From: Candidatus Methanomethylophilaceae archaeon
GTDB lineage: Archaea; Thermoplasmatota; Thermoplasmata; Methanomassiliicoccales; Methanomethylophilaceae
DNA: 64,000 nucleotides
NCBI GenBank assembly: GCA_017540825.1
Contig: JAFYAH010000049.1
Location: 62,001 to 126,000, forward strand
Reading direction: 5' to 3'
Shown here: positions 4,420-62,094 of the stretch, one piece after another
How the letters are laid out: each line of letters starts with the position of its first letter
Position numbering within the stretch: position 1 is the first letter of the stretch
The notes under the pieces: generated by a model
Database searches by the model: none
What the model saw: only the letters and a program-made list of their open reading frames with translations
What the model was told of the DNA's origin: nothing
Translations under genes and position numbers: made by a program

Positions 4420-7362
4420 TCAGATGATCTGGTACCAGATCACGAGAGGATCGTTGATGTCGTCGTGGACGTTGAGTCCGCCGGCGATGACGACCTCGAC
4501 AGCGTCGTAGGTCTTTCCGTCCTTGATGACCTTGGGCAGCTGGTTGACGGAGTAGGTGTATCCGTTGTAGGAAGCGGACTGCCCGGCTCCGATGAAGGTT
4601 CCCTGAGCCTCGTTGCCGACGACGTCGTCGGTGATGAGGATCTTGATGGCCTTTCCAGCGTCAGTGGGGTCGTTGGCGACGACGGTGGCGTGGTGGGCGT
4701 CTCCGTAGGGCTCGGAGGTCTCGTAGACAGGGTTCGCAACGGGGTTGGTCTGCCTGTGGAACTGGACGTAGGCTCCCTTCTTGGAGAACTCGAACACGAT
4801 GACGGTGAGGTTCTCGTTGATGGTGACAGAGACGGTCTCGCCCTGGTCGGCAGGCATCGAAGGCTGCTCTACGTATCCCTTCAGGAGGGTGTACTTGGAG
4901 GCCATGACGCTGTCGAACTTGGGGTTGTCGAGGTAGTTGTAGGTGAAGGTGCTTCCCCACTCTCCCTGGGAGTTGACCCTGATGTCGACTCTGTCCTTGA
5001 GGATGGGAGCGCCGTCGCACATGTACTTGACGACGACAGAGTAGGGGATCGCAGTGGGCTTGAAGTGGGCGGTAACGACCCAGTCGCTCACGATGGTGGT
5101 GTCACCCTCGGTGTAGTTGATGAAGGAGTAGGTGTAGCGCAGGTCAGCAGGAGCGGGAGTCGCGACAGTCTGTCCGTATCCGGCGACGGTCAGGATGTTT
5201 CCAGCGGTGCTGAGCTTGGTTCCGTAGTCGACAACGTACTTGTCGACGTCAACAGTTCCCTTCTCTCCCTCGGTGACGACAGTGACGGTGTACTGGTTGA
5301 CGATAGGCTCGAAGACGGCGACGATGTAAGTGTCCTTGACAACGGTCGCGGGGTACTCCTGCCACTCGACGAACCTGTAGGTGTACTGGGCGTCGGCGGG
5401 GGCGACGAGAGCGTCGCAGGATCCCATTCCACCAACGGTGAACTTGGTTCCGACAGCGCTGAGAGAGGTTCCGTAGGGGACATCGGTGATCTTGTCGATG
5501 GAGACGGTTCCCTTCTGTCCGATGGCCTCGAAGTAGACGGTGTAGTTGTTGACGATGGGCGAGAAGACCGCGACGATGGTGGTGTCAGCGACGACGGTCT
5601 CGGGGTAGGCCTGCCACTCAACGAACTGGTAGGTGTACTGGGCGTCAGCAGGAGCGACGATGGCGTCGCAGGTTCCCATGCCAGCAACGGTGAACTTGGT
5701 TCCGAGGTCGCTGAGCTTAGTTCCGTAGGGGACGTTCTCGATCTTGTCGATGGAGACGGTTCCCTTCTCGCCGATGGCCTTGAAGTAGACGGTGTAGTTG
5801 TTGACGGTAGGCGCGAAGTGCGCGACGACGGTCTTGTCCTCGGTGACGGTCACGGGTGCACCAGTCCAGTTGATGAAGGCGTAGGTGTACTGAGCGTCAG
5901 CGGGAGCGGCGGTGGCGACGGAGGTCGCAGCCCTGTCGCTGAGGGACAGAACGTTGTCGACGTAGGTAACTTCGGTACCGTAGGGAACGTTGTCGAACTG
6001 GGCGACAGAGACGGATCCCTTCTCTCCCTCGGTCACAACGTAAACCGTGTAGAGGTTGACGGTGGGCTTGAAGTGAGCGGTGACGACCCAATCGCTGGTG
6101 ACGACGGTGTCTCCCTCGGTGAAGTTGATGAAGGCGTAGGTGTACTGAGCGTCAGCGGGAGCGGCGGTGGCGACGGAGGTTCCGTAGTCTCCGACGGTCA
6201 GAGTGTCTCCGGAGGTGCTGAGGACGGTTCCGTAGGCGACCTTGAAGTAAGTCTCGGAAACGGTTCCCTTCTCTCCCTCGGTGACGACGGTGACGGTGAC
6301 CTCAGGGTAGTAGTAGAAGACGGTGACATTGTAGGGGGAGATTCCCTCGAAGTAAGCCTCCATCATCTCATCGGTGATGTAGGGCTTACCCTGTCCGGCC
6401 TATATGTCAGCGGCAGACTTTCCGCCGACGCTCCAGACGAGCTCCTGGTAAGTGAGTCCGAGGAGTTCCTGGGGGGTCTTGTCGGGAGTCACGATGCTGA
6501 CGGGCTGGTAGTACCTGCCCTCGTCGTCGACCTTGTACTTGTATTTGATGACGTCTCCGGTGATGTCGTCAACAGAGTAGATGCTGTATCCGGCGATCTC
6601 ACCAGCGTAGACCCTGAATCCTCCAGAGAATCCGCTGGGTCCGGGAGTGGCCTCATAGCTGTTGCGGATGTAGTATCCGCTGTTGTTCCTGTCAACAGCC
6701 CAGCTGCCCCATCCGTACTTCTCGGGGGCGATCATCTCACCAGTCAGAGCATCGCGGTACTCGACGACGTACTCGAAAGCGCCGAAGTCGAAGGCGGTGC
6801 CGATGATGAGCTAGTACTGGCCGTTAAGGGCAGTGTCGTTGTAAAGGGTGGTGTAGATGACAGCCTCAACCTGAACGGGGTAGACGTTGTCCTCGGAAGG
6901 CCAGAGGTCGGGAGTGCAGATGACGTTCTCGACGTAAGGAATTCCGTTAACTTCGAAGACAGGGTAGCAGACGGTCTTGGAGGCCTTGATGTTACCGATG
7001 TCGTCGGCGGTGCCGTCGCTGAAGTAGAAGGTGACAGCGATCACGGCGTCGTTTCCGTAGGGCCAGTAGTATCCCCTGTTGATGCTCTTGCTGAAGTCGA
7101 AGGAAGCGACCCAGTACTGAGTGTGAGGGAATGCCTCGTTGGCCATGGGATCGACCTCGCTCAGAGCGTAGTAGTCATATCCCAGGGTCACATCGAAGTC
7201 GATGCTCCTTTGGGGGAGATCCGCAGACCCGTAGACCTCTTTAACATCCTTGGCAGCGTCTGTGGACTCGGAGGCGATAGCGCCAACGAATACGGCAGAA
7301 ACAGCAAGGATAGCGAGAACCGCTACGAGCAGAGATTTCTCCATCTTGTATGCTGTGTTCAT
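4420..7362 (-). CDS. Large secreted repeat protein read through two in-frame TAG codons (predicted pyrrolysine)
   Basis: One frame of 981 codons runs from ATG at 7362 to TGA at 4420, broken only by TAG at 6811-6813 (codon 184) and TAG at 6400-6402 (codon 321). Residues 1-35 form a signal peptide, with a basic start (MEKS) followed by a hydrophobic stretch and Ala sites. Codons 184-321 continue with ordinary extracellular-type sequence rich in Tyr, Gly and Thr. From about residue 350 there are five tandem units of 83-85 residues, about 250 bases each (about 5050-6300), with the cores GEKGTV, VPYGT, APADAQYTY and VAHF. They resemble InlB B-repeat/Listeria-Bacteroides modules. No C-terminal anchor is seen, so it may be released or bound non-covalently. 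Base and codon use are uniform across the TAGs, and no second break type occurs. A pseudogene with two identical nonsense mutations is less likely than amber read-through. Confidence 0.8.
5050..6300 (-). repeat. Five tandem ~250-base coding repeats
   Basis: Five direct repeats of about 250 bases, marked by a conserved segment encoding GEKGTV or GQKGTV near 6265, 6013, 5765, 5510 and 5255, encode surface-protein modules. Units 3 and 4 are most alike, which suggests recent duplication. They may vary in number between strains. Confidence 0.7.
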
Positions 7363-7746: not shown

Positions 7747-9120
7747 ATGAAGGAATGGAAAATAGCCGTTGCGCTCGTTGCCATCCTCACCGTGTCCCCC
7801 TTCATCGTGCTTTGCGAAGGGCCGGCGGAAGGAGCCTACGAGCCGTCTCCCGGCATCATATCCCCCGACGTCGTCTCCATCGAGTACGACTCTTCTGCGA
7901 GCACCAACCTGAAGGTGACCACCGACAAGGACCTCGGGATCAGGGTCTGCCAGTACCAGATCAAGAACTCCAGGGGCATAATCCAGCTCCACGGCCCCGC
8001 CACGTCCTCGTCCAACGTGTTCTACCTCGACACCGCCGTGTCCACGGCCGGGTACCTGGACGACGACTCCTACGGCATGTACTTCGACAACAGGACCACG
8101 CCCTACCTGTTCAGCATCGTCAAGGTCACCTTCAACGGGAACGGCACCTCCATGAAGTCGCAGATCGTCCACCTCTCGACCGACAGCCTCTCCTCGTACT
8201 CCATGCCCGCCGGGTTCGTCTGGAACACCGAGAGGGACGGCTCCGGAACCTGGATCACCGACCTTTCCAACGTCGACATACTTGACAACTCGGTCACCCT
8301 CTATGCGTTCAAGGGGAACAACATCGGCATTGGCGTCTCCGCAAGCACCTCGGCGGTGTCTGCCGGCTCCGACGCATGCGTGCTCGTCAACCTCGACAAC
8401 AACTCGGGCGTCGCGGAAATCGACCTCAGCATCGAGTACGACCGCTCCGCGCTGACTCTGGAAAGGGTGGAGCCCGGGAACGTCTTGAACCTCCAGAAGT
8501 CGTCCATCAAAGACTACCCCTATGTCGCCAAGCTCACCACGAACGAGAACGTCAGGACTGTCGGAAACCTCCTGCGCCTGACATTCTCGGTGTCCCCCGA
8601 CGCCGAAAAGGGCCAGTATCCTGTCTTCGTAAAGGTCGACGTAGCCGAGGACTACATTGGAAAAGTGGTACCCTACACCGTGTCTGGAACCTCTGTGACC
8701 GTTGCAGACAAGACCCGCGGCGACCTCAACGGGGACGGCGCCATAGACAGTGCAGACTCCACAGTGCTCATGAATCGCCTGGCCAATATCCCCACCGGAC
8801 TTCCCGACTCTGAGTTCGACCTCAACGGGGACGGGGACGTCAACGCCCTGGACTCTCTGATCATGATGAAGTACATATCCGACATGCCGGTGTCCTTCTC
8901 CGACAGCGCCGATGACAGCTACACCATGACCATCTCCAACGCGAACGGAAACAGTGCCGTCAAAGGCATGGAAGCTGGGAAGACCTTGTTCGTCACCGCC
9001 GACGACTCCAGCACCGTCACCGCTTCGACTTCCTCCGGCAACATACCCGTGACTAAGCTCGCAGACGGAAGGTTCTCGCTCACAGTGCCTTCGTCCGATT
9101 TCACGGTCAGGGCCAGCTGA
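7747..9120 (+). CDS. Secreted protein with cohesin-like and type I dockerin modules
   Basis: The 457-residue protein starts with a signal peptide (MKEWKIAVALVAILTVSPF, with cleavage possible after about residue 30). After a unique region to about residue 185 comes a cohesin-like beta-sandwich (about 190-325), recognisable by VSAGSDACVLVNLDNNSGV, EIDLSIEYDRSALTLERVEP and GNLLRLTFSV. Residues 328-380 form a type I dockerin with two Ca-binding loops, GDLNGDGAIDSADSTVLMN and DLNGDGDVNALDSLIMMKYI. A short C-terminal tail follows. In bacteria, cohesin-dockerin pairing builds cellulosomes. Both modules in one archaeal protein suggest surface assembly or self-association, which is inference. No catalytic domain or anchor is seen. 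It diverges from the large repeat protein. Confidence 0.82.
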   Translation: MKEWKIAVALVAILTVSPFIVLCEGPAEGAYEPSPGIISPDVVSIEYDSSASTNLKVTTDKDLGIRVCQYQIKNSRGIIQLHGPATSSSNVFYLDTAVSTAGYLDDDSYGMYFDNRTTPYLFSIVKVTFNGNGTSMKSQIVHLSTDSLSSYSMPAGFVWNTERDGSGTWITDLSNVDILDNSVTLYAFKGNNIGIGVSASTSAVSAGSDACVLVNLDNNSGVAEIDLSIEYDRSALTLERVEPGNVLNLQKSSIKDYPYVAKLTTNENVRTVGNLLRLTFSVSPDAEKGQYPVFVKVDVAEDYIGKVVPYTVSGTSVTVADKTRGDLNGDGAIDSADSTVLMNRLANIPTGLPDSEFDLNGDGDVNALDSLIMMKYISDMPVSFSDSADDSYTMTISNANGNSAVKGMEAGKTLFVTADDSSTVTASTSSGNIPVTKLADGRFSLTVPSSDFTVRAS

Positions 9121-12249: not shown

Positions 12250-15200
12250 TCATGCGCGCCTAGCCCTCAGTATGACGGCCACAGCGACAAGGATGATCAG
12301 GATCACTATGACTATCAGGAGGATGTCGGTGAGGGACATCGACTTGGGCTCGACGACGATCGGCGGTTCGTCCTCCTCGAAGCTGAACTGCAGCAGGTAG
12401 CTGACGAGCTCCTCGTTGTCGGGGTTGCCGCTGAAGGTGAAGTCGTAGGTGGACTGCGGGACTCCGTTGACGACCAGAGGGTTGTCGATGTACTCGTCCT
12501 CGTGCCCGAGGGCGTAGGTGAGAGCCACGCGGTAGGTTCCGGCAGTGAGGTTCACCGGGGACTCGTAGCAGTTGAGCCCGGTCTTCGCAAGGGTCAGCGG
12601 GACGGTGTTTCCGTCGACCAGCTTTCCGACCATGGGGGTGGCGGTCTCGTCGGCGACGTACAGCTTGAAGTTGTAGATGTCGTAGACGCAGTTGAGCCAG
12701 ACGGACTCGTGGGTTCCGTACGGGTCGTAGACCCTGGCGCTGGCTGCCTCGGCGGCGTTCTTCACGTTCTTGGTGGCCCTCCATCCGTTGACGTACGCAT
12801 CGTCCGCGGAAGCGTAGATGCTGTCGATGTTGCGCCTGAGGGACTTGCCCTTCTCGGTGTAGGTGTCGACGTAGTTGTCGGGGTCGGCGTATACCACGAG
12901 GTAGAGGTTGTCTCCCTTGTAGTACCTGGTGAAGTCGAACCCGGAGAACGCCCCGTTGGTCTTGACCGCGGGGGAGACGTATGCGACTCCGTCGGGGGTT
13001 ATGGTGACGTTGGACCCTATTACAGGGGTCGATGTGGCGGGAGCGACTCCGGTTCCGAAGATGCTCTCGTTGACTCCGATGAACAGCTTGCTGGCTGCGA
13101 AGCTACCGGCCTCGGTCAGGATGCTGCCGTAGACGTAGACGGTCTGGTACATGACGAAGGATCCGTCCTTGGCGTCGATGGTGCCGGGGATGGTGGATGT
13201 TCCGCCGACCTCGGGAGAGCCGATGACGACGTCTCCGGAGTTGGTGAACGTTCCGGGGATGCTGAGCGCGGCGGCCCTGAAGGCGCTGTCGACTCCGGTG
13301 ACAATGTTGCCGGTGACGTCGACGGCTCCCTTTGCATCGGTCCCTACGACGACAGAAGATCCGGATCCGACGTTGAGGGTCCCTCCGACGGAGAGGTCCT
13401 TGCCGATGTCGAAGCTGGATCCGTCCACGATTCCGAGAGTGGCGCTGGAAGCGACCCTGACGGCGCCGAGGACGTCGATGTCTGCCTCGGAGGCTCCGAT
13501 GACGGCGCTGCCGTATACGTCGAGGTCCCCGTTGATGGCGACGGTCTTCATTCCGGTGAGGTCCATCTCGCCAGAGACGGCTGCGTCCTTGGCGACGGAA
13601 AGGCTTCCGGCGGCCTCGGAGTTGGTGGGTATAGCCTTGAGCGACCCGTCGACGTCGAGAGCGCCGCTGAGGACGATCTTGGTCGCAGGAGTGACGGTGA
13701 GGGCGCCGTTGACGTTCATGTCCTGGGCGGTGACCTTCACGTTGTCGCTCAGAGCGGAGACGTCGTTGAAGGTGATGTCCTCGAAAGCCGTGATGTTGGA
13801 GTTCTCGGCGACGGTGAGCTTTCCGACGGTGATGTTGTCGGCGCCGATCTCGGCCTCGGTCCCGAACGCGGACTCTCCGGAGAGGGAGAGGTCGTTGAAG
13901 GCGCTGACGCCAGAGCCGTTTCCGAGAACGATTCCGACCATGTCGATGGACTCTGCCGCGACGGCGGAGTTGTTGCCGGCCTCGATGGTTCCCTCGGTCA
14001 GGGCCTTTTCGATGACGAACATCAGGTCGTTCCCGAAGGTCGCGGTGTCGACGGTTGCCGTGTCGGCGGAGATGTTGGCGTTGTCGCCAGCGGTGATGGC
14101 GCCTATGAGGGCCTTCTCGGTGGCCTTGACGATCAGGTTGTTCTTGAGCACTCCGCTGATGGCGACTTCCTTCCCGGTGAAGGAGGCGTTGTCTCCGGCG
14201 TTGACGTCCCCGAACACGTTCTTGTCGCCGGCGGTGGCGGTGAAGCCGTTGCCTGCGTCGACGGTTCCGTCGGACTTGATGCTCTCCTTGGCGACGAGCT
14301 TGGCTCCGTCCTTGAGGGAGGCGTTGCCGAAGAAGATGTTGCTGGCGCTGATGGAGAGGTTGTTGCCGGCCTCGATGGTGTCGAGCGAGACGACGTCTCC
14401 GGTGACCTCGATCCTGCTGTCGTCCCCGAGGATGACCTTTCCGTCTCCCATGAGGGTGTCGAGCTTCAGGTAGGTGTTGTCTCCGCAGTAGGCCTTTCCG
14501 TCCACGTTGAAGGTGCTGAGGTCGTACATCGCGGGGAGCTTGCCCTCCTGGGCGGTGTACGTGGATCCGGTCTGGGCGACGGAGATCTTGTCTCCGACGA
14601 CGATGTCCGCGACGAGGGTTCCGGCGACGTCGATGGTCTTCGCGGTGAGTCCCTTCTCGGCGGTGACCTTCGCTCCCTCGGGAATGACGATGTCCTTGTA
14701 GAAGGTGTAGTCGTTGGTGAGGCTGACGTCCGCGTCGGAGGCGAACAGGACGTTGACCCCCTCGGCGATGTTTGCGTTGACCCTTGCGAGCCCGGAGAGT
14801 GTAGCGGACGCATCGGAGGACGCGGCGTCGATGGCGCTGCTGACGAGCACTCCGCCCTCGGCGCTCTTGGTGAGGACGACGTTCTTGGCCTTGGCCAGCG
14901 TGACGGATCCGTTGCCGATGGCGATCTTTCCGCTGACGGAGGAGGCCTCGGACGCGTTGAAGTCGAATCCGCTGAGGCTCAGGGTGCCGGCCTCGAAGGC
15001 TCCGCCCCTGACGAATATGGTCTTTCCGGCTCCCATGAGGGTGACGTCTCCGACGGAGTTGTCGCCGTACATCTCGACGATGCTTCCGATGGTGGACTCC
15101 TTTCCTGCGATGTAGGAGAGGGGAGCGATGGTATTGACTCCGCCGTTCGTGAAGTACGCTCCCGCGATCTGCGAGGAGTACGCGCTGAAGGGCGCGTCGA

Positions 15201-17001
15201 AGACGAAGCATCCGTTGACGACGGTGGATCCGGAGGTTATGACGAAGTTACCAGGGTGGGCGTCGAGCATTCCGTTCACGGTGAGCTTGGCGCCGTTGAT
15301 GACCTCGACGGTGTTGCCGCTTCCGATCTTGAGGGTGACGTCCTTGGGGATGACGGTGTCCTCGGATATGTAGACGTGGTTCCTCTTGATGTAGATCACG
15401 TCGCCAGGCTGCGCCTCCTCGAGAGCTCTCTTGAGGTTGGTGAACTTGGTCATGATGCCGGACTCGACGAGGACGTCGCTGTTGACGATGGAGACGTTGG
15501 TCTCGCTGGTAGGGGTGTTCTCGAGGATCAGGGTTCCCTGGACGTCGATGGGGATGGTCCCGTTGCGGAAGACCCCTCCGTCCTTGACGGTGACGGTAGC
15601 CCTGTTGGTGATGGTGATGGAGTTGGCCTCGGTCATGTCGATGGTCATTCCCTTGGGGATGACGGTATCGGAGTCGAAGACGATGTCTCCATAGACCTTG
15701 ATGTAGTCGGGATTGGCCGCGAGGGCCTTGTCGAAGGTCGTGTAGAAGTGGTAGTTGTCCTTCATGTAGTACACGGCGTTCAGAGCGATTCCCGGAGTGG
15801 TCTTGGACTTGATTACCAGAGGCACCGCGGTCTGCACGGTCCCGGTGACGGTGAGAGTGCCGGTACCGGTGATGGGCGCCGTTGCAGTGTTCTGGATCAT
15901 GGTGACGTAGGAGGTCACGAGAAGAGCGGAACCGGGCTCCAGAACGACGTTCACGTCGGCGGGGAAGGTCATGTCGTCGTTGAACTGGACCTTCGTCCCT
16001 GCGACGGTGACGATTCCTGCCTCTCCGCCGTTGGCGGGGATCCCGGCAAGGGCGACGCTTTCTCCGTCAGCGGCGACGACGACTCCCTCGACGTTGCTGA
16101 TCTGAAGCTGGAGGTCGTTCCCGGTGCGGAACGAGGCCGTTCCGTTGAGGTTCTTGGACTCGAAGGTCGACTTGTCGAGAGCCTCGACGTAATAGCTGGA
16201 AGGCTCGTCGCTGTCGGCGACGACCGCCTTGTCGTTGACTATGTTTCCGACGAACGCACCGTTGTTGGTGAAGGTTCCGTTGTTGACGAGGGCGGCGTCG
16301 GCTCCTGCGATCTGCTTGAGGGATCCGGAAGGCGAGACCACGAAGGACGACCCGTCCTGGATGGTCAGGCCCTTGAAGGATGCTACTCCGTTGACGGCGA
16401 CGGCGGATCCCGACTCGGCGGTCAGGCCGTTGAGGTAGGTCCCTTCGTCGACGCTGGCGATGGTGAGCTTTCCGCCGTTCTTGACGGTGACCCCCTCGAG
16501 AGAGGCGGTACCGTTCTCGGCTATGGTCATGTTTCCGCTGACGGAGGCGGTCGCTCCCTCTGCGAGAACGAACGCGTTGGGCCCGTTGACGGACACATCG
16601 CCGCTGATGCTGATGGAAGCGCCGTTGTCCACGACGAACGTGGGCTGCTCGACGGTTCCTCCGGCGCAGACGACCTTTCCTTTGATGTCAGCGGTTCCGG
16701 ACGCGATCTTGACGTAAGATCCGCTGTCGAGAGTGAGGGTCACCCCTTCGTTGACGGTGAAATTGTTGTTCGCCTCGACGAACTGGCCTTCCCTTACGGT
16801 GAGGTCATCATCGACGATTATAATCTGGCTCTCGCTGCCGATTATGCTCGAGCGGAGAGCGCCGTGGATGTACAGTGTCTCGACCTCTTCCGCATCAGCA
16901 GGAATAGCGATGGCGAGACATGACGCCACGACCGCCAGAACGGCGAAGATGGCAAGGAGCCTTCCCTTGCCTCTGAATGCATTTGCTTTTACGAACTCCA
17001 T
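12250..17001 (-). CDS. Giant adhesin-like cell-surface protein with C-terminal membrane anchor
   Basis: The 1583-residue protein has a signal peptide (GRLLAIFAVLAVVASCLAIA, cleavage near ADA at about residue 37). A very long middle part is built of short beta-strand repeats of the form 'xIxxGxxxxVxGxxxVxAGxxxxxxG', rich in Val, Gly, Asn, Ala and Asp, suggesting a right-handed beta-helix. A C-terminal membrane helix (MSLTDILLIVIVILIILVAV) is followed by RARRA. Near residues 1370-1500 there is a non-repeat region with Tyr-rich segments before the anchor. The architecture matches methanogen adhesin-like proteins thought to bind host, syntroph or plant surfaces. There is no enzymatic motif. Codon bias is so strong that the opposite strand is also open for most of its length. 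It is preceded by a long structured leader. Confidence 0.85.
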   Translation of the reverse strand: MEFVKANAFRGKGRLLAIFAVLAVVASCLAIAIPADAEEVETLYIHGALRSSIIGSESQIIIVDDDLTVREGQFVEANNNFTVNEGVTLTLDSGSYVKIASGTADIKGKVVCAGGTVEQPTFVVDNGASISISGDVSVNGPNAFVLAEGATASVSGNMTIAENGTASLEGVTVKNGGKLTIASVDEGTYLNGLTAESGSAVAVNGVASFKGLTIQDGSSFVVSPSGSLKQIAGADAALVNNGTFTNNGAFVGNIVNDKAVVADSDEPSSYYVEALDKSTFESKNLNGTASFRTGNDLQLQISNVEGVVVAADGESVALAGIPANGGEAGIVTVAGTKVQFNDDMTFPADVNVVLEPGSALLVTSYVTMIQNTATAPITGTGTLTVTGTVQTAVPLVIKSKTTPGIALNAVYYMKDNYHFYTTFDKALAANPDYIKVYGDIVFDSDTVIPKGMTIDMTEANSITITNRATVTVKDGGVFRNGTIPIDVQGTLILENTPTSETNVSIVNSDVLVESGIMTKFTNLKRALEEAQPGDVIYIKRNHVYISEDTVIPKDVTLKIGSGNTVEVINGAKLTVNGMLDAHPGNFVITSGSTVVNGCFVFDAPFSAYSSQIAGAYFTNGGVNTIAPLSYIAGKESTIGSIVEMYGDNSVGDVTLMGAGKTIFVRGGAFEAGTLSLSGFDFNASEASSVSGKIAIGNGSVTLAKAKNVVLTKSAEGGVLVSSAIDAASSDASATLSGLARVNANIAEGVNVLFASDADVSLTNDYTFYKDIVIPEGAKVTAEKGLTAKTIDVAGTLVADIVVGDKISVAQTGSTYTAQEGKLPAMYDLSTFNVDGKAYCGDNTYLKLDTLMGDGKVILGDDSRIEVTGDVVSLDTIEAGNNLSISASNIFFGNASLKDGAKLVAKESIKSDGTVDAGNGFTATAGDKNVFGDVNAGDNASFTGKEVAISGVLKNNLIVKATEKALIGAITAGDNANISADTATVDTATFGNDLMFVIEKALTEGTIEAGNNSAVAAESIDMVGIVLGNGSGVSAFNDLSLSGESAFGTEAEIGADNITVGKLTVAENSNITAFEDITFNDVSALSDNVKVTAQDMNVNGALTVTPATKIVLSGALDVDGSLKAIPTNSEAAGSLSVAKDAAVSGEMDLTGMKTVAINGDLDVYGSAVIGASEADIDVLGAVRVASSATLGIVDGSSFDIGKDLSVGGTLNVGSGSSVVVGTDAKGAVDVTGNIVTGVDSAFRAAALSIPGTFTNSGDVVIGSPEVGGTSTIPGTIDAKDGSFVMYQTVYVYGSILTEAGSFAASKLFIGVNESIFGTGVAPATSTPVIGSNVTITPDGVAYVSPAVKTNGAFSGFDFTRYYKGDNLYLVVYADPDNYVDTYTEKGKSLRRNIDSIYASADDAYVNGWRATKNVKNAAEAASARVYDPYGTHESVWLNCVYDIYNFKLYVADETATPMVGKLVDGNTVPLTLAKTGLNCYESPVNLTAGTYRVALTYALGHEDEYIDNPLVVNGVPQSTYDFTFSGNPDNEELVSYLLQFSFEEDEPPIVVEPKSMSLTDILLIVIVILIILVAVAVILRARRA

Positions 17002-30738: not shown

Positions 30739-32154
30739 TCAGGCTGCGCGCCTCTCCTCGTCGAACGCGTATGCCAGGATCAGCGTCAGGACCGACAGGG
30801 CCGTCCCGACGACCATGGCGAACCAGAACCCTCCCATGAACTCCTCCACGGAGAGCACCGAGATGAGCGCGCCCTGGGCGCCGGATCCGAGAGAGAACAG
30901 CCCCGAGTACAGCGCGGAGCCCAGCGCGCAGCCGAAGTATATCACGAACGAGACCATCGGGGAGGCCGCCCCCCTCTTGTCCGCGTCGACGCTGTCGATT
31001 ATCCTGTTCCCCAGGGATCCACCTCCGAACCCCCATATCACGCCCAGGAGCACCACGGCGACCATCATTGGCAGAGGGGATTCCGTCCCGGCGAAGACCA
31101 GGGACAGCGACATCGCGACCATGGAGGCCGTCGCCAGTATGACGTAGTGCCTGTTCCCTTTCAGCGGCACCCTCTTCCCTATGGGAACGCACATAACCAG
31201 GGTCGCAACGGACTGCACGCAGAGCACGACGCCCGTCATCATGACGTCGTAGCCGAGGACCAGCTGCATGTAGAACGGAAGCAGGTAGAATACGCCCATC
31301 CAGCAGAGGTTGACCATCAGGAACACCGTGATGGCAGCCAGCGTGGCCGGCCTCCTGAACACCGACGTCTCCAGGACCGGCTCCCGGACCTTCCTCTCCC
31401 GGAAAGCGAACAGGACGATGAGCACTGCGAAAGCCGCCGACATCATGGCGGATGACGGCCCGAACCCGTGAGCCGGCGCAGACTCGATGACGTACAGGCC
31501 GAGCACCATGGCCGCGAACAGCAGAGCGGAGCCCAGGTAGTCGAAGCTGGACCTGTCGAGCCCGGGGTCCTTCGGGACCGACCTGATAGCAAGCGCGGCT
31601 CCGGCCAGGCCTATGGGCACGTTGAACAGGAATATCCAGCCCCAGTCCAGGAACTCGGAGAGGACGCCTCCGAGTATGGGGCCGCAGGCTCCCCCCACCG
31701 AGTATCCGAGCACGGATATGGACAGCCCCAGGGCGGTCTGCTCGCGAGGGAGGTGCTTGACCGCTATCATTATGCCGGAGGCGGAGAGCATCCCCGCTCC
31801 GATCCCCTGGGCCGCCCTGAAGGCCAGCAGCATCCAGAATGTCTGCGAGAAGGCGCACAGCAGCGACCCGACGGCGAAAACCGCGAACCCCGCGGTTATG
31901 ATCAGCTTCAGTGCGCCCTTGTCGCACATCTTGCCGAACACGAGGATGAGCCCCGCCATCATCAGGAAGTAGACCGTGATGACCCAGGAGGAGTCGGCGG
32001 CGCTCACGTCGAAAGCGTCGGCTATGTCCGGCAGGACGGTGGTGACTATCGTCCCGTCCAGCCCGTCGACGAACGCCGCGAGGGCGATGACGGCGAACAG
32101 CATCGTCGTCTCCCCCTTCGTCCTAGCGAAGCGGCCTGCGCTGAAAGGGCTCAT
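30739..32154 (-). CDS. MFS multidrug-type exporter (EmrB/QacA, DHA2-like)
   Basis: The 471-residue protein has about 14 membrane segments. Motifs typical of DHA2 exporters are AFVDGLDGTIVTTVLPDIA in helix 1, FRAAQGIGAGMLSASG, GYSVGGACGPILGGVL (antiporter motif C) and WIFLFNVPIGLAG. The start ATG 32154 overlaps the stop of the upstream PHP gene (ATGA), so it is translationally coupled to the end of the histidine operon. The substrate is unknown. Coupling to a histidine operon could hint at export of an amino acid or analogue, but this is inference. The overlap implies that ribosomes must pass the in-frame TAG of the PHP gene to reach this start. Confidence 0.9.
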   Translation of the reverse strand: MSPFSAGRFARTKGETTMLFAVIALAAFVDGLDGTIVTTVLPDIADAFDVSAADSSWVITVYFLMMAGLILVFGKMCDKGALKLIITAGFAVFAVGSLLCAFSQTFWMLLAFRAAQGIGAGMLSASGIMIAVKHLPREQTALGLSISVLGYSVGGACGPILGGVLSEFLDWGWIFLFNVPIGLAGAALAIRSVPKDPGLDRSSFDYLGSALLFAAMVLGLYVIESAPAHGFGPSSAMMSAAFAVLIVLFAFRERKVREPVLETSVFRRPATLAAITVFLMVNLCWMGVFYLLPFYMQLVLGYDVMMTGVVLCVQSVATLVMCVPIGKRVPLKGNRHYVILATASMVAMSLSLVFAGTESPLPMMVAVVLLGVIWGFGGGSLGNRIIDSVDADKRGAASPMVSFVIYFGCALGSALYSGLFSLGSGAQGALISVLSVEEFMGGFWFAMVVGTALSVLTLILAYAFDEERRAA

Positions 32155-32813
32155 CGGTATGTTCGGCGCAGCGCCCTGATGGCCTCGAAGGGGGTCACGT
32201 TTATGGCCAGCTCTACCTCCTCGTCGGTCATGCCGGCCCCGCGCGCCACCACCCTCGCGGCGGCCTCGTCCATGAGGTTCTCCGGGGCGTGGGTGTCGGA
32301 ATCGACAATCATCTTGGCGCCCGCCTCCCTGGCGACCTTCACGACGTGCCCGTTGGTTATGTTGTGGCCCATCCTCCCGGTCACCTCTATGAGGACCCCG
32401 TTCTCCTTTGCCAGCAGGGCCTCTTCGAGGGTCAGGAAGCCCGGGTGCGCGAGGACGTCTATGTCCGGGTTCTCCGCGGAGCTGCGGTTGGTGCCCTGCT
32501 AGACGGGCTCGACCACGGTCTCCCCGTGGACCACCACCCATTCGGCCCCGAACGACCTGGCCGCCTCGGCCACCTTGGCTATCTTGCACGGAGGGACGTG
32601 CGTTATCTCCACCCCGGGTATGACCCTGATGTAGTCCTCGCACAGTTCCGAGGCCTTGACGACGTTGGTGACCACCCACTCCACGTTGGTCATGTCCACG
32701 TGGTCCGTGATGGCTATCGCGTCGTGGCCGAGGACCATCGCCCTCCTGACCAGCTCCGCCGGGATCAGCTCCCCGTCGCTGTAGACCGTGTGGGTGTGCA
32801 GGTCGGCCCTCAT
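32151..32813 (-). CDS. PHP-domain phosphatase, probable histidinol-phosphatase, with in-frame TAG
   Basis: The frame runs from ATG 32813 to TGA 32151 (220 residues) with a single TAG at 32499-32501 (codon 105). Both sides belong to one PHP domain: [16 protein letters not shown] (metal His-x-His), AITDHVD, VIPGVEITH and VVVHGETVVEPV before the TAG; QGTNRSSAENPDIDVLAHPG, GHNITNGHV and IVDSDTHAPENL (Asp-x-His metal ligands) after it. Truncation at the TAG would remove half of the metal site. The gene overlaps hisIE upstream (ATGA) and the MFS gene downstream (ATGA), so the frame must be translated through. In this operon it is the best candidate for the histidinol-phosphate phosphatase step. A DNA polymerase-like PHP role is unlikely at this size. 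Confidence 0.87.
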
Positions 32814-38572: not shown

Positions 38573-40192
38573 ATGCCTGAACAACCTTTGAAGGCCTCTG
38601 AGCGCACCGTATACGAGGTCCTCAGGGATGCCGCCGCGGAAGATCCGGACCGCCCCGCGCTGTCGTACATGGGCGAGAGGACGTCCTATGGCAAGCTCCT
38701 CTCCCAGGTGGACCGCGTGTCCGTGTGCCTTTCCGAGAGGGGCGTCGTGAGGAGTGACTGCGTGTCCGTATGCCTCCACAACTGCCCGGAAGCCGTCGTC
38801 GCGTTCTATGCTGCCAACCGCCTTGGGGCAGTCGCCGCGATGGTCCACCCCCTGTCGTCCAGCGAGGACGTCGCCCGCTGCGTGGAAGACACGAAGTGCA
38901 AGGTGGCGTTCGTGAACGGAGCCTCCGCCCGCAGGTTCTCGAAGGCTATGCGTCCGGACGCCGGCTGCGGCCTGGTCCTGATCCCGGCTCCCGGAGAGGA
39001 GGACCGGCTCCCCGGGACGGAAAGCTGGGAAGGCTTCCTACGCGAGGCCGGGCACGGGACCCCGTACGAGCGCAGGTGCTCGCCGGACGACCCTGCGGCC
39101 ATACTGTACACCGGGGGCACCACCGGGCCTAGCAAAGGCGCCGTCATCTCCAGCACGTCGTTCAACGCGTCAGCGGCAGGGATGAAGGAGCTGTCCGGGC
39201 TCTGCGAGACAGACCAGAAGATGCTCTCGGTGCTGCCGCTCTTCCACGGGTTCGGCCTCTGCACCGGGATCCATCTCCCTGTACTGCATAGAATGGAGAC
39301 CATCCTGGTCCCCCGCTTCTCTGCGGAGTCCGTCATGAAGGCGATGGCGGAAGAGCGCCCCGGAGTCATCTTCGGGGTCCCGACCGTCTTCGAGAGGATC
39401 CTGGAGAAGGGCGTCCCGCCGGGGCTGGACCTTTCGTTCCTGACCGGCCTCTTCTGCGGAGGGGACGCGATGCCGGCCGAGGCCAGGCGCTCCATGGACC
39501 GCATGCTGGCGGAGCACGGGTGCAATGCCAGGATCAGGATCGGGTACGGATGCACGGAATGCCTCTCCGCGGTCACCATAACCCGCGAGGACGAGGCGCG
39601 CGACGGGAGCGTCGGAGTCCCTCTGCCGGGGTGCGAGGTCTCGATCGCGCCCATGGAAGGCCAGCCGTCCGGAGACGGGGCCGGGGAGATATGCGTGAGG
39701 GGACAGATCCTCATGACAGGCTACCTGAACCGCCCGGAGGAGACCGCCGAAGTGCTTCGCAGGCACGACGACGGGAAGGTCTGGCTCCACACCGGGGACG
39801 TCGGCAGGATGGACGAGGACGGCTCGCTCGTGTTCCTCAGGAGGGCGAAGCGCGTCATAGTGACTTCGGGGTACAACGTGTATCCCAGCGAGCTGGAGAG
39901 GTGCCTCGACTCCGACCCCCGGGTGAAGGCCTCGTGCGTGGTCGGGATTCCGGACAGCCTCCGCATCGCCAGCGTGAAGGCGTTCATAATACTGAAGGAC
40001 GGCGTCGAGAAGTCCGTGGGCACAATCGAGCGCATAAAGGCCCGCCTGGCCGAGATGGTGCCGGCGTACGCCCTGCCGCGCGAGTTCGTGCTCCTGGACG
40101 CTTTCCCCAGGACGATGTTCGGCAAGGTGTCCTACAAGGACCTCGAGAACGACCCTTCCTATTCCGCAGACGTCGCTCCACGATTGGCATGA
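38573..40192 (+). CDS. Class I adenylate-forming enzyme (acyl-CoA ligase family)
   Basis: The 539-residue protein activates a carboxylic acid as acyl-AMP and usually transfers it to CoA. The phosphate loop is AILYTGGTTGPSKGAVIS, the adenine/acid motif is IGYGCTECLSAVT, and the hinge region is WLHTGDVGRMDEDGSLVFLRRAKRVIVTSGYNVYP (Asp of TGD and hinge Arg/Lys present). The C-terminal catalytic Lys is in FPRTMFGKVSYKDL. The start ATG follows a TATA box. The fatty-acid versus other acid preference cannot be told. Its 3' end overlaps by about 200 bases with the open frame of the convergent nucleotidyltransferase gene. Possible roles include lipid or short-chain acid use, unproven. Confidence 0.88.
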   Translation: MPEQPLKASERTVYEVLRDAAAEDPDRPALSYMGERTSYGKLLSQVDRVSVCLSERGVVRSDCVSVCLHNCPEAVVAFYAANRLGAVAAMVHPLSSSEDVARCVEDTKCKVAFVNGASARRFSKAMRPDAGCGLVLIPAPGEEDRLPGTESWEGFLREAGHGTPYERRCSPDDPAAILYTGGTTGPSKGAVISSTSFNASAAGMKELSGLCETDQKMLSVLPLFHGFGLCTGIHLPVLHRMETILVPRFSAESVMKAMAEERPGVIFGVPTVFERILEKGVPPGLDLSFLTGLFCGGDAMPAEARRSMDRMLAEHGCNARIRIGYGCTECLSAVTITREDEARDGSVGVPLPGCEVSIAPMEGQPSGDGAGEICVRGQILMTGYLNRPEETAEVLRRHDDGKVWLHTGDVGRMDEDGSLVFLRRAKRVIVTSGYNVYPSELERCLDSDPRVKASCVVGIPDSLRIASVKAFIILKDGVEKSVGTIERIKARLAEMVPAYALPREFVLLDAFPRTMFGKVSYKDLENDPSYSADVAPRLA

Positions 40193-40919
40193 ACCTCTTG
40201 TCGAGCTTGCTGGAGACGTCCTTTGTCCGCACGTACTCCATTATGCGCTCGTAGTCCTGGACGTAGTCCACCTCGGCCCAGAAGAGGTCTGGGACGTCCA
40301 CCACGCTCACCGGCTCTTCGGCGAGGTTGTTGTAGAGGACGTTCTCCCACCACAGATCGTACTTCTCGTCCTTCACCATCCTGTCCAGCCTCTTCGAGAA
40401 CGCCTCGACGCGGCCGGCGGTGATCTTCGCCAGCCCGACGTACTCCTAGTTCCTCTCGCCGATGTCCAGATCCTTCCCGAACTTGGATATTAGGCCGTCC
40501 TCGACGTAGAAGAAGTAGTCGCCGACCTCGTACCTGGAGCTGTCCGCGACCATCACTATGTTGCCAGGGGCATCCAACAGCCTGTCCAGGAGGGGCTCCT
40601 CCCAGAACACGTCGGCGTTGGCGATTATCGTGTCCTCGCCCGGGACCAGGTACTTCCTGGCGGTCCAGAGGGACCCGAGGCTGTTTGTGACCGAGTAGAA
40701 CGGGTTGTAGCAGTAGTCGACGTCGTAGTCCTTTAGGCAGGAGCGGATGGTCTCGCAGTCGTACCCCAGGACGACGGTAACGTCGATGCCCCTCCTGCGG
40801 AGGATGTCCACTGAATGGGCGATGATCGGCACCCCGTCGATCTTCAATGTGCTCTTGGGGCACTTGAAATGCCTGTACATCCTAGTCCCCTTCCCTGCAG
40901 CCAGCAGAATAGCCCTCAT
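39984..40919 (-). CDS. Nucleotidyltransferase (LicC-like CTP/NTP transferase) with in-frame TAG
   Basis: The frame starts MRAILLAAGKGTRMYRH at 40919, the classic sugar-phosphate or phosphocholine nucleotidyltransferase loop, and continues with CPKSTLKIDGVPIIAHSV (Lys), TIIANADVFW (metal Asp) and YFFYVEDGLISKFGKDLD. At codon 158 (40446-40448) there is a TAG, after which the same frame goes on: EYVGLAKITAGRVEAF, WWENVLYNNL and VPDLFWAEVDYVQDYERIMEY. The last two match the C-terminal part of phosphocholine cytidylyltransferase-like enzymes (WxEI/D motif with substrate metal site). Truncation at the TAG would lose that substrate site. The protein should end near 40195, but the open frame continues about 60 codons over the convergent ligase gene to TGA 39984. 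It lies 4 bases after the ATP-grasp gene. Confidence 0.82.
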
Positions 40920-47377: not shown

Positions 47378-49987
47378 ATGGACGTAAGACTGGAGCTGCC
47401 TCTGCTCAAGTGCACCGGATGCAGCGCATGCGAGAGCGTATGCCCTAAAGGCGCCATATCCATGGACATCAATTCCCAAGGATTCGGAAAGGGGTTCAGA
47501 TACCCGCATGTAGACGCGAGCAAATGCATCGAGTGCGGCAAATGCGTGAAGACCTGCCCTGTGTTGAACCCGAGCTATTCGGGGGACAAGAAGCCCAAGG
47601 TCTATTCGGTCAAGTGCCCGAGCCATCAGATGAAATGCGCGTCCGGAGGAGTCTTCGGATTCCTGGCGGACCGCTTCCTGAGCGAAGGCGGCGGTGTGTG
47701 CGGAGCGGCCTTCGACGAAGGGTTCGAGCTCAGGGAGAGGTACGTGGAAGACCCCGAGGGGCTCCCTCCTCTGCTGAGCTCCAAATACCTGCAGTCCTAC
47801 CCGGGCGACGTCTACTCCGAGATCGAGAAATCGCTGAAGGCCGGGAAAAAGGTCCTGTTCTGTTCCACTCCCTGCCAAGTAGCAGGCTTGAAAGCGTACC
47901 TGAAGAAGGCCCCCGGCAACCTGTACTGCGTGGACCTGCTCTGCCGCGGGGTGCCGTCCAACGAGCTTTTCAAACGCTACCTCCACGAGACTTTCAACGG
48001 CGACATCGAGAACGTCGGCTTCCGCAGCAAGTCGGTCGGCTGGACCACCAGCATGACCATATCCCGCCCGAACGGCAAGGAGGAGGTCTACAGCAGAAAG
48101 GACGACCCATACATCCGCCTGTTCGAGAGCTGGGCGTCTCTTCGCGAATCCTGCTACGAGTGCCCGTTCAACCGCATCCCGAGGCAGGGCGACCTCACGA
48201 TAGGCGACCATTGGGGGGTCGGCGCAGAGAACCGCAACAGGAAGGGCATCAGCATTGTCCTCGTCAACAGCAAGAAAGGCAAAGAGCTCCTGGACATGAT
48301 CGAGAAGGGAGGGAACTCCGTCATCGAGACAGACATAGAGTCAGCCAGCGCCCGCAACAGGGCGATGACCAAGCCGACGGCGAAGCCCAAGGCATACGCC
48401 AAGCTCCAGGCGGGGCTGGAAAGCCTCAGCGTATCAGACGCCCTCTGGTACGCCGGGCTCGTCAAGAAGGACGTATGCATGGTGCTCATGTCCAACCGGA
48501 ACTTCGGGAACAACCTGACCAACTGGTCCCTCTACCGCACGATAAAGAGCATGGGCTACAGCGTGGTCATGACGTCCAGGAACAGGACCCACAGGATCTC
48601 TCCGCTGTTCCAGAAGAACCCTTACCGCCCCGACGAGTCCTTCGTCCTGGACCCGTACCGGCTCAACGACCTGTGCAAGGTGTTCCTCGTCGGATGCGAC
48701 CAGACGTTCGCGCCCATGGGCATATCCAAGGAGCGCGTGACCCTCCTCCCGTGGGTCCGCGGGGACAGGTACAAGATGTCGTACAGCGCCTCCCTGGGGA
48801 AGTCGGTGTACGAGGACGCCACGGAGGACCAGATCAAGCAGTTCGCATACCTGTTCAAGCGCTTCAACGCCGTCTCCGTGAGGGAAGCCAGCGGGCCCGG
48901 CCTCATGCGCGAGACGTTCGGCGTCGACGCCGAGTGCGTCATGGACCCGGTATTCCTGTCGACGGCCGACGACTACCGCTCCCTGGCAGCGACCAGCAGG
49001 ATCAAGGCGCCTCGCGAGAAGTACGTCCACTGCTACCTCCTGGACCCCACCCCGGACAAGGTCGCTGAGGTGAAGAGGTACGCGAAGAGGATGGGGATAA
49101 AGAAGATAACCTGCATAGTCAACAAAGGCGAGAGGACGCCGATAGAGGGCTTCGAAGTGCACAGGGCGAGGGTGGAGTCCTTCATAGAGCTGCTGGACAA
49201 GAGCTCCCTGTTCGTCACGGACTCCTTCCACGGCTTGTGCATGGCCATGATACTGAACAAGAACTTCTATGCACTCAAGGTCAAGAAGATAAGGGGAGAG
49301 GAGCGCTTCAGGAGCATCCTGGGCCTGGTCGGCCTCGAGGACAGGTGGGCGTCCGTCGCCGAGCCGAGGTTCGACGACATCGACTACGGCCCGGTCAACA
49401 GCATTCTGGGGAAGGAAGTGGAGAGGTCCAAAGCCTGGCTTAAGGAGCACCTGGAGCAAGGAATGGCGTTCGACGGGCCCCTGGATGCGTACGACATGCA
49501 GCTGGTGAACGCGGACCGCGTCATGAGCTTCCAGAGCGCGTCGTTCAGGCAGGCCTCGTTCGCCATGAACGCCGACTGCAGGTCCTCGGAGGTGTTCGAC
49601 CCCTCGGTGTGCGCCTCCATCGGGAACAGCTACCACGCCGGGAGGAGCGTCCCCAAGGACGACTCGAAAGCCATAGAGTGGCTCAAGCGCGCATGCATGT
49701 CCGGCGACGTGCCTTCCATGGTCGCGCTCCGCCGCATCCTTCGCGGAAGGGACGACGAGGAGTCCAGAAGGGACCTCCTTTCGACGACCAGATAGCTGGC
49801 AGACCTGCGGGCGCCGGGCCACGGCCTGATGGTGGCCAGGCTCTACGAGGAGGGGTCATGCGTGGAGAAGAGCCACGAAGACGCGGTCAGATGGGCGGGA
49901 TCCGCCGAGAAGCTGGAGGCGTACATGGCCATGATCTCCCCGGACGGCGAGGACGACGGCGAAGAAGCATCCGAGTTCCGAGCGTGA
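47378..49987 (+). CDS. Ferredoxin / F420-dehydrogenase-beta / polysaccharide pyruvyltransferase / Sel1 fusion with in-frame TAG
   Basis: The 869-codon protein has four parts. Residues 10-62 are a two-cluster ferredoxin (CTGCSACESVCP and CIECGKCVKTCP). About 70-350 resemble the FrhB/FdhB coenzyme F420 dehydrogenase beta subunit (CASGGVFGFLADRF, FCSTPCQVAGLKAYL, LTIGDHWG). About 365-670 match polysaccharide pyruvyltransferase (SNRNFGNNLTNWSLYRTIK, GCDQTFAPMG, SLFVTDSFHGLCMA). From about 740 on there are Sel1 repeats. A TAG at 49793-49795 (codon 806) falls inside the Sel1 region. Beyond it the same frame reads GLMVARLYEEGSCVEKSHED and AVRWAGSAEKLEAYM, a clear Sel1 unit, to TGA 49985. The frame is thus best read through. 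It probably modifies a surface glycan in a redox-linked way, which is inferred. Confidence 0.85.
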
Positions 49988-59607: not shown

Positions 59608-62094
59608 TCAGACTCCTCCGGCCTTCCTCTCGGCCCTTATTGCTTCCAGCCCCTTGCTCCATCTTCCGGGGTCCTTCTCGCAGGCCTTGGCCGTCCACTT
59701 CTCGGCCATGACCAGGTTCCTCGGGACCCCTCTCCCGTAGCGGTACGCCCTCCCCAGGCGGCCCATGGCCCCGGGGTTGCCGGCGTTCGCGAACGGCAGT
59801 ATCATGTTTATCATCTCTTTGTCAGTGTCCTCGGCCCGGTCGGACCAGTACATCTCGAACAGCTCTATTGCCGCGATGGGCATCCCGGCCTCCGCCGCCT
59901 TGCCGTACCACTCGACGGCCGCCCCGGGGTCCTTCTCCACGCCCTTCCCGTCCCTGTACATGCGGGCCCTCTGGAGGTAGGCGTACTTCGACCCGCTCTC
60001 AGCCTCGGACGCACAGAGCCTGCTCGCCTCGTCGCGGAACTTAGGGTCGCCGGACTCCATGAGGGTGTCGTAGAGCTCCTGGAACCATGCCGGGTCCTTG
60101 TCCGTCGCGCGCCTGAGCCACCTGCGGGCCAGGAGGTAGTCCTTGGAGACCCCTCTGCCGCGATGGTACATCCTGCCCAGGCGGCCCATGGCGGACGCGA
60201 CCCCTGCCTCGGCGGAGGAGCGGACCAGCCCGAGGAGGTCGAGGTCGTCCCTGCGGTCGTCGAACGTCCACAGTATGTCGAACAGCTCCATGGGCGCCCA
60301 CTCCACGCCGTACTCCACGGCCTTCCTGTACCATCCTGCGGCGGCATGGAGGTCCTTCTCCACGCCCTTCCCGTCGCGGTATATGCGCCCGAGGAAGCCG
60401 TAGGCGTACCTGGCGCTACGGTCGCAGCGCTCCAGGCAGATCTCCAGAGCCAGCTTGTGGTAGTCCTCGCGGTCCGACTTCAGCAGGAGGTCGCAGAGCT
60501 CGGAGAGCCATACCGGGTCCTTCTCGTACGCCCATCTGAACCACCTGACCGCCTCGTCCGTGTCCTGGGGGACGCCTTTCCCGTCCCTGCAGGCGCGCCC
60601 CATGCGGGCGATGGCGGACATGTCCTCCGCGTCCAGCAGGGGCTTCAGGAGGCCTATCATCTCGGGATAGGTGCTCTCGTCCTCCAGGGCCCAGAGGGTG
60701 TCGAACAGCTTTATCCTCGAGGTGCTGAACCCGTCGGCGACCTCCTGCCTGAGGGCGTCCACGGTGATCCCCCAGTACCTCTGGGCCATATCCTGGTCCT
60801 TCTCCACGTAGATGCCGTACTTGTAGGCGCGCCCGACCCTGAAAGCCGCGTGCATCTCTCCGGCGTCCGCATATCCCTTGAGGGTGTCGAACGCCTCGCC
60901 TATCCAGCCCTTGTCGCCGCTCCTCCAGGCGTCGTCGAAGTCGCCGACCGCCCGGAACACCTTCCCTGTGCTCTCGAAGTCCGGGTCCCCCTTCTCGGCG
61001 AAGTTGGCGAACACCGGGCCGAAGTAGTCGTCGTCCTTCTTTGCGTAAAGATACCACATGTACCTGTACTTGAAGCTCCTGTACAGGTCCAGGTCGTAGA
61101 TCCCGGCGAATCCCTCCAGCTTACCGATGGAGTCGAGCGTCATCATGTTCCTGATGCACTTGTCGCACTTGGAGCAGTTGCGATAGGAGGACGTACACGA
61201 CACCAGATGCCTCTGCGCCACCGGATACTCCGATATGGCCACGGTCTTGTCGTACCTGGACACCGTCGGGGCGTCGATGTATATGCGCATCGAGGGCGTG
61301 CTGAAGCAGTTCACCGTCAGGAGCTCGTACTTCGAGGGCGGGAACATGAGGTGCCCCTTGATGGAGAACTCCGTGACGCAGTCCACCCCGGAGGACGCGT
61401 AGAAATAGTATCTCCATAGCTTCTTCAGGCAGAATATCGCGAACGCGGAGGTGAACGTGTGGGTGAGGTAGTGGTTCTGATGGAGGACCTCGTCGACGTT
61501 GGAGTCCGTCTCTATGAGAGGGAGGCCTATCTCCTTCGCGGCCTCGCGGGCGTTGGCGTACATCCCCTGGCGGACGTTGTCTATGCCCTCCATCCTGTAT
61601 ATGCCGTTGAAGGCGCCGACGTTGTTTATGCATAGGTGGGTGATCCTGAACTCCGGGTCCTCGGACTCGGCCAGCCTCATCACGCTGTACATCGAGTCCA
61701 CCCCGCAGGACAGGCCGGTCCCCACAGCCTTCCCTCCGCCTATGGCGCTACCCCTCTTCAGGAAGAGCTGCGCGGGATACCCGTCGTTCTTCACCACCGG
61801 CGGAAGGAACTGCTCCTTCAGGTTATAGTACAGGTCGTTGGATATCGGTATGTCGGAGCGGATGTTGTACCCCTTGGCGACGGCCAGCCTGATCAGCAGG
61901 ACCACGAACGCGTCGCACCTCTCCACAAGGAGGTAGTCGGAATACTCCGAGGGGACGGAGAACCAGACCTCCTTCGGGTCTACCGACTCGGTTCCGTCCT
62001 CTCCGAAGTCCACGACGTCCACCTTCCCTTTAAGGAAGGCCTTGCCGCCGGCGTCCTCCTTCCATATCTCCTTTATAACCAACTCCCCGAGCAC
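59608..62094 (-). CDS. QueC-like PP-loop ATPase / Sel1-repeat fusion (copy 2)
   Basis: The 828-residue paralogue of the next gene has the PP-loop VGTGLSCGVDSMYSVM at about residue 130 (closer to SGGxDS than copy 1), LPLIETDSNVDEVLHQNHYL, and the Cys cluster NCSKCDKCIRNMMTLD at about 310. About ten Sel1 repeats follow from residue 420 (YRDGKGVEKDLHAAAGWYRK, YRYGRGVPRNLVMAEKW). The start is GTG 62094, chosen because the following LVIKEIWKED aligns with the N terminus of copy 1 and no in-frame ATG exists nearby. A TATA-like GTATTAAG lies about 45 bases upstream. No membrane segment is present. Preservation of the reactive Ser/Asp loop in this copy suggests it is the more active partner. Confidence 0.8.
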   Translation of the reverse strand: MLGELVIKEIWKEDAGGKAFLKGKVDVVDFGEDGTESVDPKEVWFSVPSEYSDYLLVERCDAFVVLLIRLAVAKGYNIRSDIPISNDLYYNLKEQFLPPVVKNDGYPAQLFLKRGSAIGGGKAVGTGLSCGVDSMYSVMRLAESEDPEFRITHLCINNVGAFNGIYRMEGIDNVRQGMYANAREAAKEIGLPLIETDSNVDEVLHQNHYLTHTFTSAFAIFCLKKLWRYYFYASSGVDCVTEFSIKGHLMFPPSKYELLTVNCFSTPSMRIYIDAPTVSRYDKTVAISEYPVAQRHLVSCTSSYRNCSKCDKCIRNMMTLDSIGKLEGFAGIYDLDLYRSFKYRYMWYLYAKKDDDYFGPVFANFAEKGDPDFESTGKVFRAVGDFDDAWRSGDKGWIGEAFDTLKGYADAGEMHAAFRVGRAYKYGIYVEKDQDMAQRYWGITVDALRQEVADGFSTSRIKLFDTLWALEDESTYPEMIGLLKPLLDAEDMSAIARMGRACRDGKGVPQDTDEAVRWFRWAYEKDPVWLSELCDLLLKSDREDYHKLALEICLERCDRSARYAYGFLGRIYRDGKGVEKDLHAAAGWYRKAVEYGVEWAPMELFDILWTFDDRRDDLDLLGLVRSSAEAGVASAMGRLGRMYHRGRGVSKDYLLARRWLRRATDKDPAWFQELYDTLMESGDPKFRDEASRLCASEAESGSKYAYLQRARMYRDGKGVEKDPGAAVEWYGKAAEAGMPIAAIELFEMYWSDRAEDTDKEMINMILPFANAGNPGAMGRLGRAYRYGRGVPRNLVMAEKWTAKACEKDPGRWSKGLEAIRAERKAGGV

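Follow-up and report, generated by a model that had tools for sequence, protein, structure and literature searches.

The methylamine methyltransferases MtmB, MtbB and MttB are cytoplasmic enzymes in whose genes an in-frame TAG at a conserved position is read as pyrrolysine (Pyl), the rare 22nd amino acid. Archaea in which every TAG is read as Pyl (the 'Pyl code') have reportedly been published recently; they are like the archaeon analyzed here in that TAG is almost never a stop and Pyl proteins are many, but here about two genes look TAG-terminated, and the exported domain described below is a separate finding. Outside the methyltransferases, Pyl is known or predicted in Thg1 of Methanosarcina acetivorans (PMC2933860) and in transposases, 16 non-methyltransferase Pyl proteins are predicted in Methanomethylophilus alvus (PMC4153887), and ISO4-H5 has 46 TAG genes, one of which is called adhesin-like (PMC5011839). 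In the parts of these accounts that concern such proteins, the cases are neutral or merely predicted, and conservation of a TAG position across species is described only for a transposase family of Methanosarcina.

We analyzed a stretch of 64,000 nucleotides, hereafter the window (positions 62001–126000 of contig C50), from an assembly of 2.37 Mb in 73 contigs (G000), and found that a gene of 980 codons with two in-frame TAG codons can be compared with three described systems. Like the methyltransferase genes, it has TAG as a Pyl codon at a conserved position, but its product is exported, is unrelated to these enzymes, and has two Pyl sites. Like the genes of the incidental Pyl proteins (Thg1 and those of M. 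alvus and ISO4-H5), it is a TAG-containing, non-methyltransferase gene of a Pyl archaeon; unlike them, as far as their descriptions go, it keeps its first TAG across a clade. A β-rich exported stalk, possibly with a reactive residue, is shared with the cross-linked and thioester adhesins (the SfbI thioester domain, PMC4450167; the ester-bond domains 8fha and 8f9l), but the reactive group would here be an encoded imine, and there is no sequence relation. On the whole, this is probably an intact gene of an exported protein in which Pyl is decoded and site 1, at least, is selected. In the literature searched, we came upon no account of Pyl being conserved at a site of an exported protein family or domain. 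Judging from the sequence comparison, what is added to the reading of TAG as Pyl is the conservation of the site across species, and, if the proposal is true, a genetically encoded electrophile would be at work outside the cell.

The exported gene and its relatives

The gene occupies positions 4420–7362 of the window on the minus strand, as do all its parts given below, and is delimited from one frame and the orthologues; it starts with ATG and closes at the TGA at 4420–4422. The sequence-only reading had placed the open segments 7362–6814, 6810–6403 and 6399–4420 in one shared frame, and this was borne out, since the only breaks are TAG and the coding signal continues through them. The coding composition is normal on either side of each TAG (GC3 of 0.80 for the joined frame), and the codon scores are +457 after the first TAG and +391 after the second. 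The two TAG codons are codon 184 (TAG1, Pyl site 1; 6811–6813) and codon 321 (TAG2, Pyl site 2, in the motif DIOAGxGxP; 6400–6402). Both sit inside a domain of about 310 residues (residues ~45–350; 6313–7230) that is conserved in seven sequences. Searches of Pfam, NCBIfam, and PDB sequences with this domain gave no match, and it is called the orphan Pyl domain here.

The domain is preceded by a signal peptide (residues 1 to ~36; 7255–7362), assigned by hydropathy and by the similar N-termini of the full-length orthologues, and followed by five tandem repeats of ~84 amino acids each (residues 355–773; 5044–6300) and a C-terminal domain (residues 774–980; 4423–5043) with a counterpart in G057. 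Hydropathy, the repeats found and the orthologues all support the earlier view that signal peptide, middle domain and five repeats form one protein, whose complete synthesis requires that both TAGs be read. Contrarily, the designation of the repeats as InlB-like was a visual resemblance only and is not sustained, as neither the InlB B-repeat or Listeria-Bacteroides repeat profile nor any other repeat was matched in Pfam or NCBIfam at E ≤ 1. The signal peptide is the only hydrophobic window in the 980-residue protein. Hydropathy gives no second hydrophobic segment or C-terminal anchor, and the protein therefore has no obvious membrane anchor. Thus, of the earlier claim that Pyl is placed on the cell surface, the export is supported by prediction, whereas no anchor is visible and a surface location may only be surmised. 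The gene is presumably expressed, and its product is predicted to be an exported, fibrillar or adhesin-like protein of a methane-producing archaeon of the Methanomethylophilaceae type (Methanomassiliicoccales).

A search of 102 genomes of the family, and then of 147 of the order, found the orphan Pyl domain only in six species of one genus. The seven copies are one each in G000, G057, G061, G062, and G069 and two in G068. The profile matches in G032 and G063 are weak and neither shows the domain: the match in G032 is confined to the signal peptide and the residues that immediately follow, and that in G063 was lost on re-search. No relatives were found in viral contigs. The carriers include the named MAGs SIG7, Tb.RUG.172, Tb.RUG.20, and RGIG6046, which originates from sheep omasum; the names and this source suggest a rumen-type habitat. 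In the tree of the neighboring PHP protein, the six species form one clade (98/95), in which G062 branches first. The second copy in G068 is embedded in a frame at least 2,750 codons long that contains no TAGs other than TAG1 and TAG2. In all these proteins, of ~1000 to at least 2750 codons, the TAGs are confined to the orphan Pyl domain.

In the regions examined, each species has, next to the Pyl gene, an exported gene transcribed divergently from it. The divergent neighbor in the window (7747–9120, plus strand) carries cohesin and dockerin type I domains, which is unusual in an archaeon. The window also encodes a protein of 1583 residues (12250–17001, minus strand) whose gene lacks TAG and which matches no Pfam family; clade members have large proteins in a similar place with signal-peptide-like starts.

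Conservation of the two sites and possible use of Pyl

The sequence-only reading had raised the question of whether TAG is conserved or alternates with sense codons in relatives. TAG1 is kept in six of the seven copies (G000, G057, G061, G069, and both copies in G068) and is TGC (Cys) in G062. TAG2 is kept in four (G000, G057, and both copies in G068), and is GTC (Val) in G061 and G069 and AAC (Asn) in G062, indicating that Pyl is not essential at site 2 in these three copies. None of the seven copies ends at the first TAG. Among the six sequences that carry TAG1, most pairs are 38–52% identical at the protein level (~40–55% for the orthologues and the second copy taken together), and the distances at four-fold sites are ~0.6–1.4 between most species pairs, meaning that silent sites are strongly diverged. 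TAG1 is the sole invariant column between −10 and +4, a variable stretch of 13 columns. From the summed four-fold tree length, the probability of neutral retention is ~0.002 for TAG1 and, by the same approach, ~0.008 for TAG2 in its four carriers, both being rough values from seven sequences of one clade. Among the gap-free columns, ~28% are invariant in the six TAG1 carriers, so that TAG1 resembles a constrained residue and is not exceptional. We consider it likely that site 1, at least, is kept by purifying selection and that the Pyl side chain is used there. The retention of Pyl despite diverged surroundings suggests a job outside methylamine metabolism. As the orphan domain is small and could in principle be expressed alone, the function of Pyl becomes testable.

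The AF2 models of the orphan domain are weak (pLDDT of 51 and 60) and mainly β. In the better model, site 1 is the first residue of a strand and follows a low-confidence loop. The quality of the models is too poor for the arrangement of the two Pyl sites with respect to one another to be read from them. Foldseek searches with the models gave no significant match (best E > 0.01), and no covalent (ester or thioester) adhesin domain was matched significantly in the fold or PDB sequence searches; ester-bond adhesin domains recur among the weak Foldseek matches. No conserved Lys or His partner was identified. The position of a second Cys residue in G062 should be mentioned. It lies eight residues upstream of the Cys at site 1 in the same loop, and this single case is suggestive in that a disulfide between the two could stand in for a loop-closing constraint otherwise based on Pyl.

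Pyl is described as an electrophile whose ring reacts with ammonia and hydroxylamine to give adducts (PMC2933860). Here it would most likely serve either as a reactive residue, by way of its imine, or as a structural one in an adhesin-like domain. In the mechanism we propose, a strand of the folded orphan β domain would carry Pyl at its N-terminal edge, behind a variable loop, and the five repeats would serve as the stalk; the electrophilic pyrroline imine would react with a nucleophile to give an adduct that is covalent or at least tight. The adduct could act as a staple within the molecule, comparable to the cross-links of bacterial adhesin domains, or could result from the capture of an amine-bearing ligand, in the manner of the methylamine methyltransferases with ammonia or methylamine. 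We put forward such a chemical use of the imine in the exported domain tentatively. With the same reserve, Pyl may have been recruited beyond methylamine metabolism as a residue with a selected function in an extracellular domain, where its genetically encoded imine would act as an electrophile, either cross-linking the domain or binding amine-bearing ligands or partners covalently.

If Pyl is selected, it would most likely be used to form an adduct, either within the protein or with a ligand, and passive packing would be nearly as likely. In the latter case, which is possible if somewhat doubtful, Pyl would be selected only for the length and partly hydrophobic nature of its lysine-like side chain, and the imine would be idle. 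The predicted location of site 1 at the opening of a strand suits a packing residue, as does the tolerance of Val or Asn at site 2 in some species, but Lys, Met, or Leu codons would be cheaper and independent of Pyl, and Cys alone is found in its place at site 1.

Pyl could instead be decoded as a neutral passenger, TAG, hardly used as a stop in this genome, having arisen by chance in ordinary genes and persisted by descent, an origin proposed for TAGs in M. alvus and in the Thg1 gene of M. acetivorans (PMC4153887, PMC2933860). In-frame TAGs in other genes were compared by BLAST, with rows in real genes kept and the antisense or non-coding majority left out. The TAG at codon 158 of a nucleotidyltransferase-like gene (39984–40919, minus strand) corresponds to Tyr in G069 and is likely a neutral change from TAC to TAG, as judged from the alignment; that in a HAD-type gene corresponds to Leu in G069; and one TAG in G057 corresponds to Glu in G000. 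These replacements by Tyr, Leu, or Glu indicate that TAG can be neutral and that its retention is not automatic. A passenger would also agree with the ~16 non-methyltransferase TAG genes reported in M. alvus and the 46 TAG genes in ISO4-H5 (PMC4153887, PMC5011839), and with the fact that TAG2 is not universal among the seven copies. However, site 1 is unchanged in six sequences amid varying neighbors, where loss is predicted under neutrality, and every TAG in these very long frames falls in a single domain. We therefore regard the passenger explanation as rather unlikely. The frame of the nucleotidyltransferase-like gene appears to extend into its convergent neighbor.

Part of the TAG retention could be a clade-wide habit, because two other genes also keep TAG. 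One encodes the PHP-family phosphatase-like protein (32151–32813, minus strand), in which codon 105 (TAG at 32499–32501) closely follows a conserved HGE motif. All six clade species have TAG here, against Ala, Met, or Ile in the aligned members of the genus outside the clade. This codon, too, is a candidate for Pyl under selection. The other encodes a fusion of ferredoxin, polysaccharide pyruvyl transferase-like, and Sel1 parts (47378–49987, plus strand). Its TAG at codon 806 is common to G000 and G057, the only clade members with a close match over the C-terminal part, though the flanks differ.

Decoding of TAG in the genome

A tRNA-Pyl with the anticodon CTA was found by ARAGORN at 15328–15398 of contig C68, and pylS, pylB, pylC, and pylD are present, all above the curated cut-offs. 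The pyl genes are on C68, together with an MtmB gene in which an in-frame TAG is read through; an MtbB gene carrying one TAG is on C63. TAG stops were counted in sampled stretches of ~153 kb and not in the whole genome. Eleven gene calls end at TAG in this sample, and most of them run on as clear coding sequence, including MtmB and both TAGs of the 980-codon gene, while one or two are doubtful. The apparent true TAG stops are those of 46735–47745 of C50 and 4492–5352 of C68, and about two of the ~100–104 genes look TAG-terminated. Of the seven calls that end at TAG in 166 kb of G057, six run on, and the remaining one meets the next stop after only nine codons. The rarity of TAG stops in the two samples indicates that TAG is mainly a sense codon here, which agrees with the low use of TAG stops reported for M. 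alvus (PMC4153887). With the complete pylTSBCD set, the TAG-bearing mtmB and mtbB genes, and TAG seldom acting as a terminator, the decoding that had been proposed from the letters gains support. It is very probable that both TAGs of the 980-codon gene are decoded as Pyl by the genome's own tRNA-Pyl and PylS, and we infer that the residues at codons 184 and 321 are physically Pyl. As a consequence, exported proteins of this kind in rumen methanogens are split or cut short by standard gene-calling programs.

The TAGs could also be leaky stops, giving an exported product of 183 or 320 residues in addition to the full-length protein, with the ratio set by the supply of Pyl-tRNA in a methylamine-dependent switch. 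TAG is described as ambiguous in some Pyl archaea (PMC2933860), and the few genes here that still appear TAG-terminated are consistent with this. However, termination at codon 184 would split the conserved domain midway, and TAG termination is very rare in the sampled genome, making such a switch improbable. A broken gene or a sequencing error, for which nothing speaks but the stop codons themselves, is ruled out for practical purposes by the identical TAGs in independent assemblies of other species and the coding constraint on both sides of the TAGs.

Two observations on the decoding genes should be added. In G062, an assembly that is 82% complete, no pylS above the cut-off was found, though the PHP gene keeps its TAG. 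In G000, the PylD match (261 residues) lies inside an open frame of 646 residues (L006:18464–20000, on C68), suggesting that PylD may have a long C-terminal extension or be part of a fusion.
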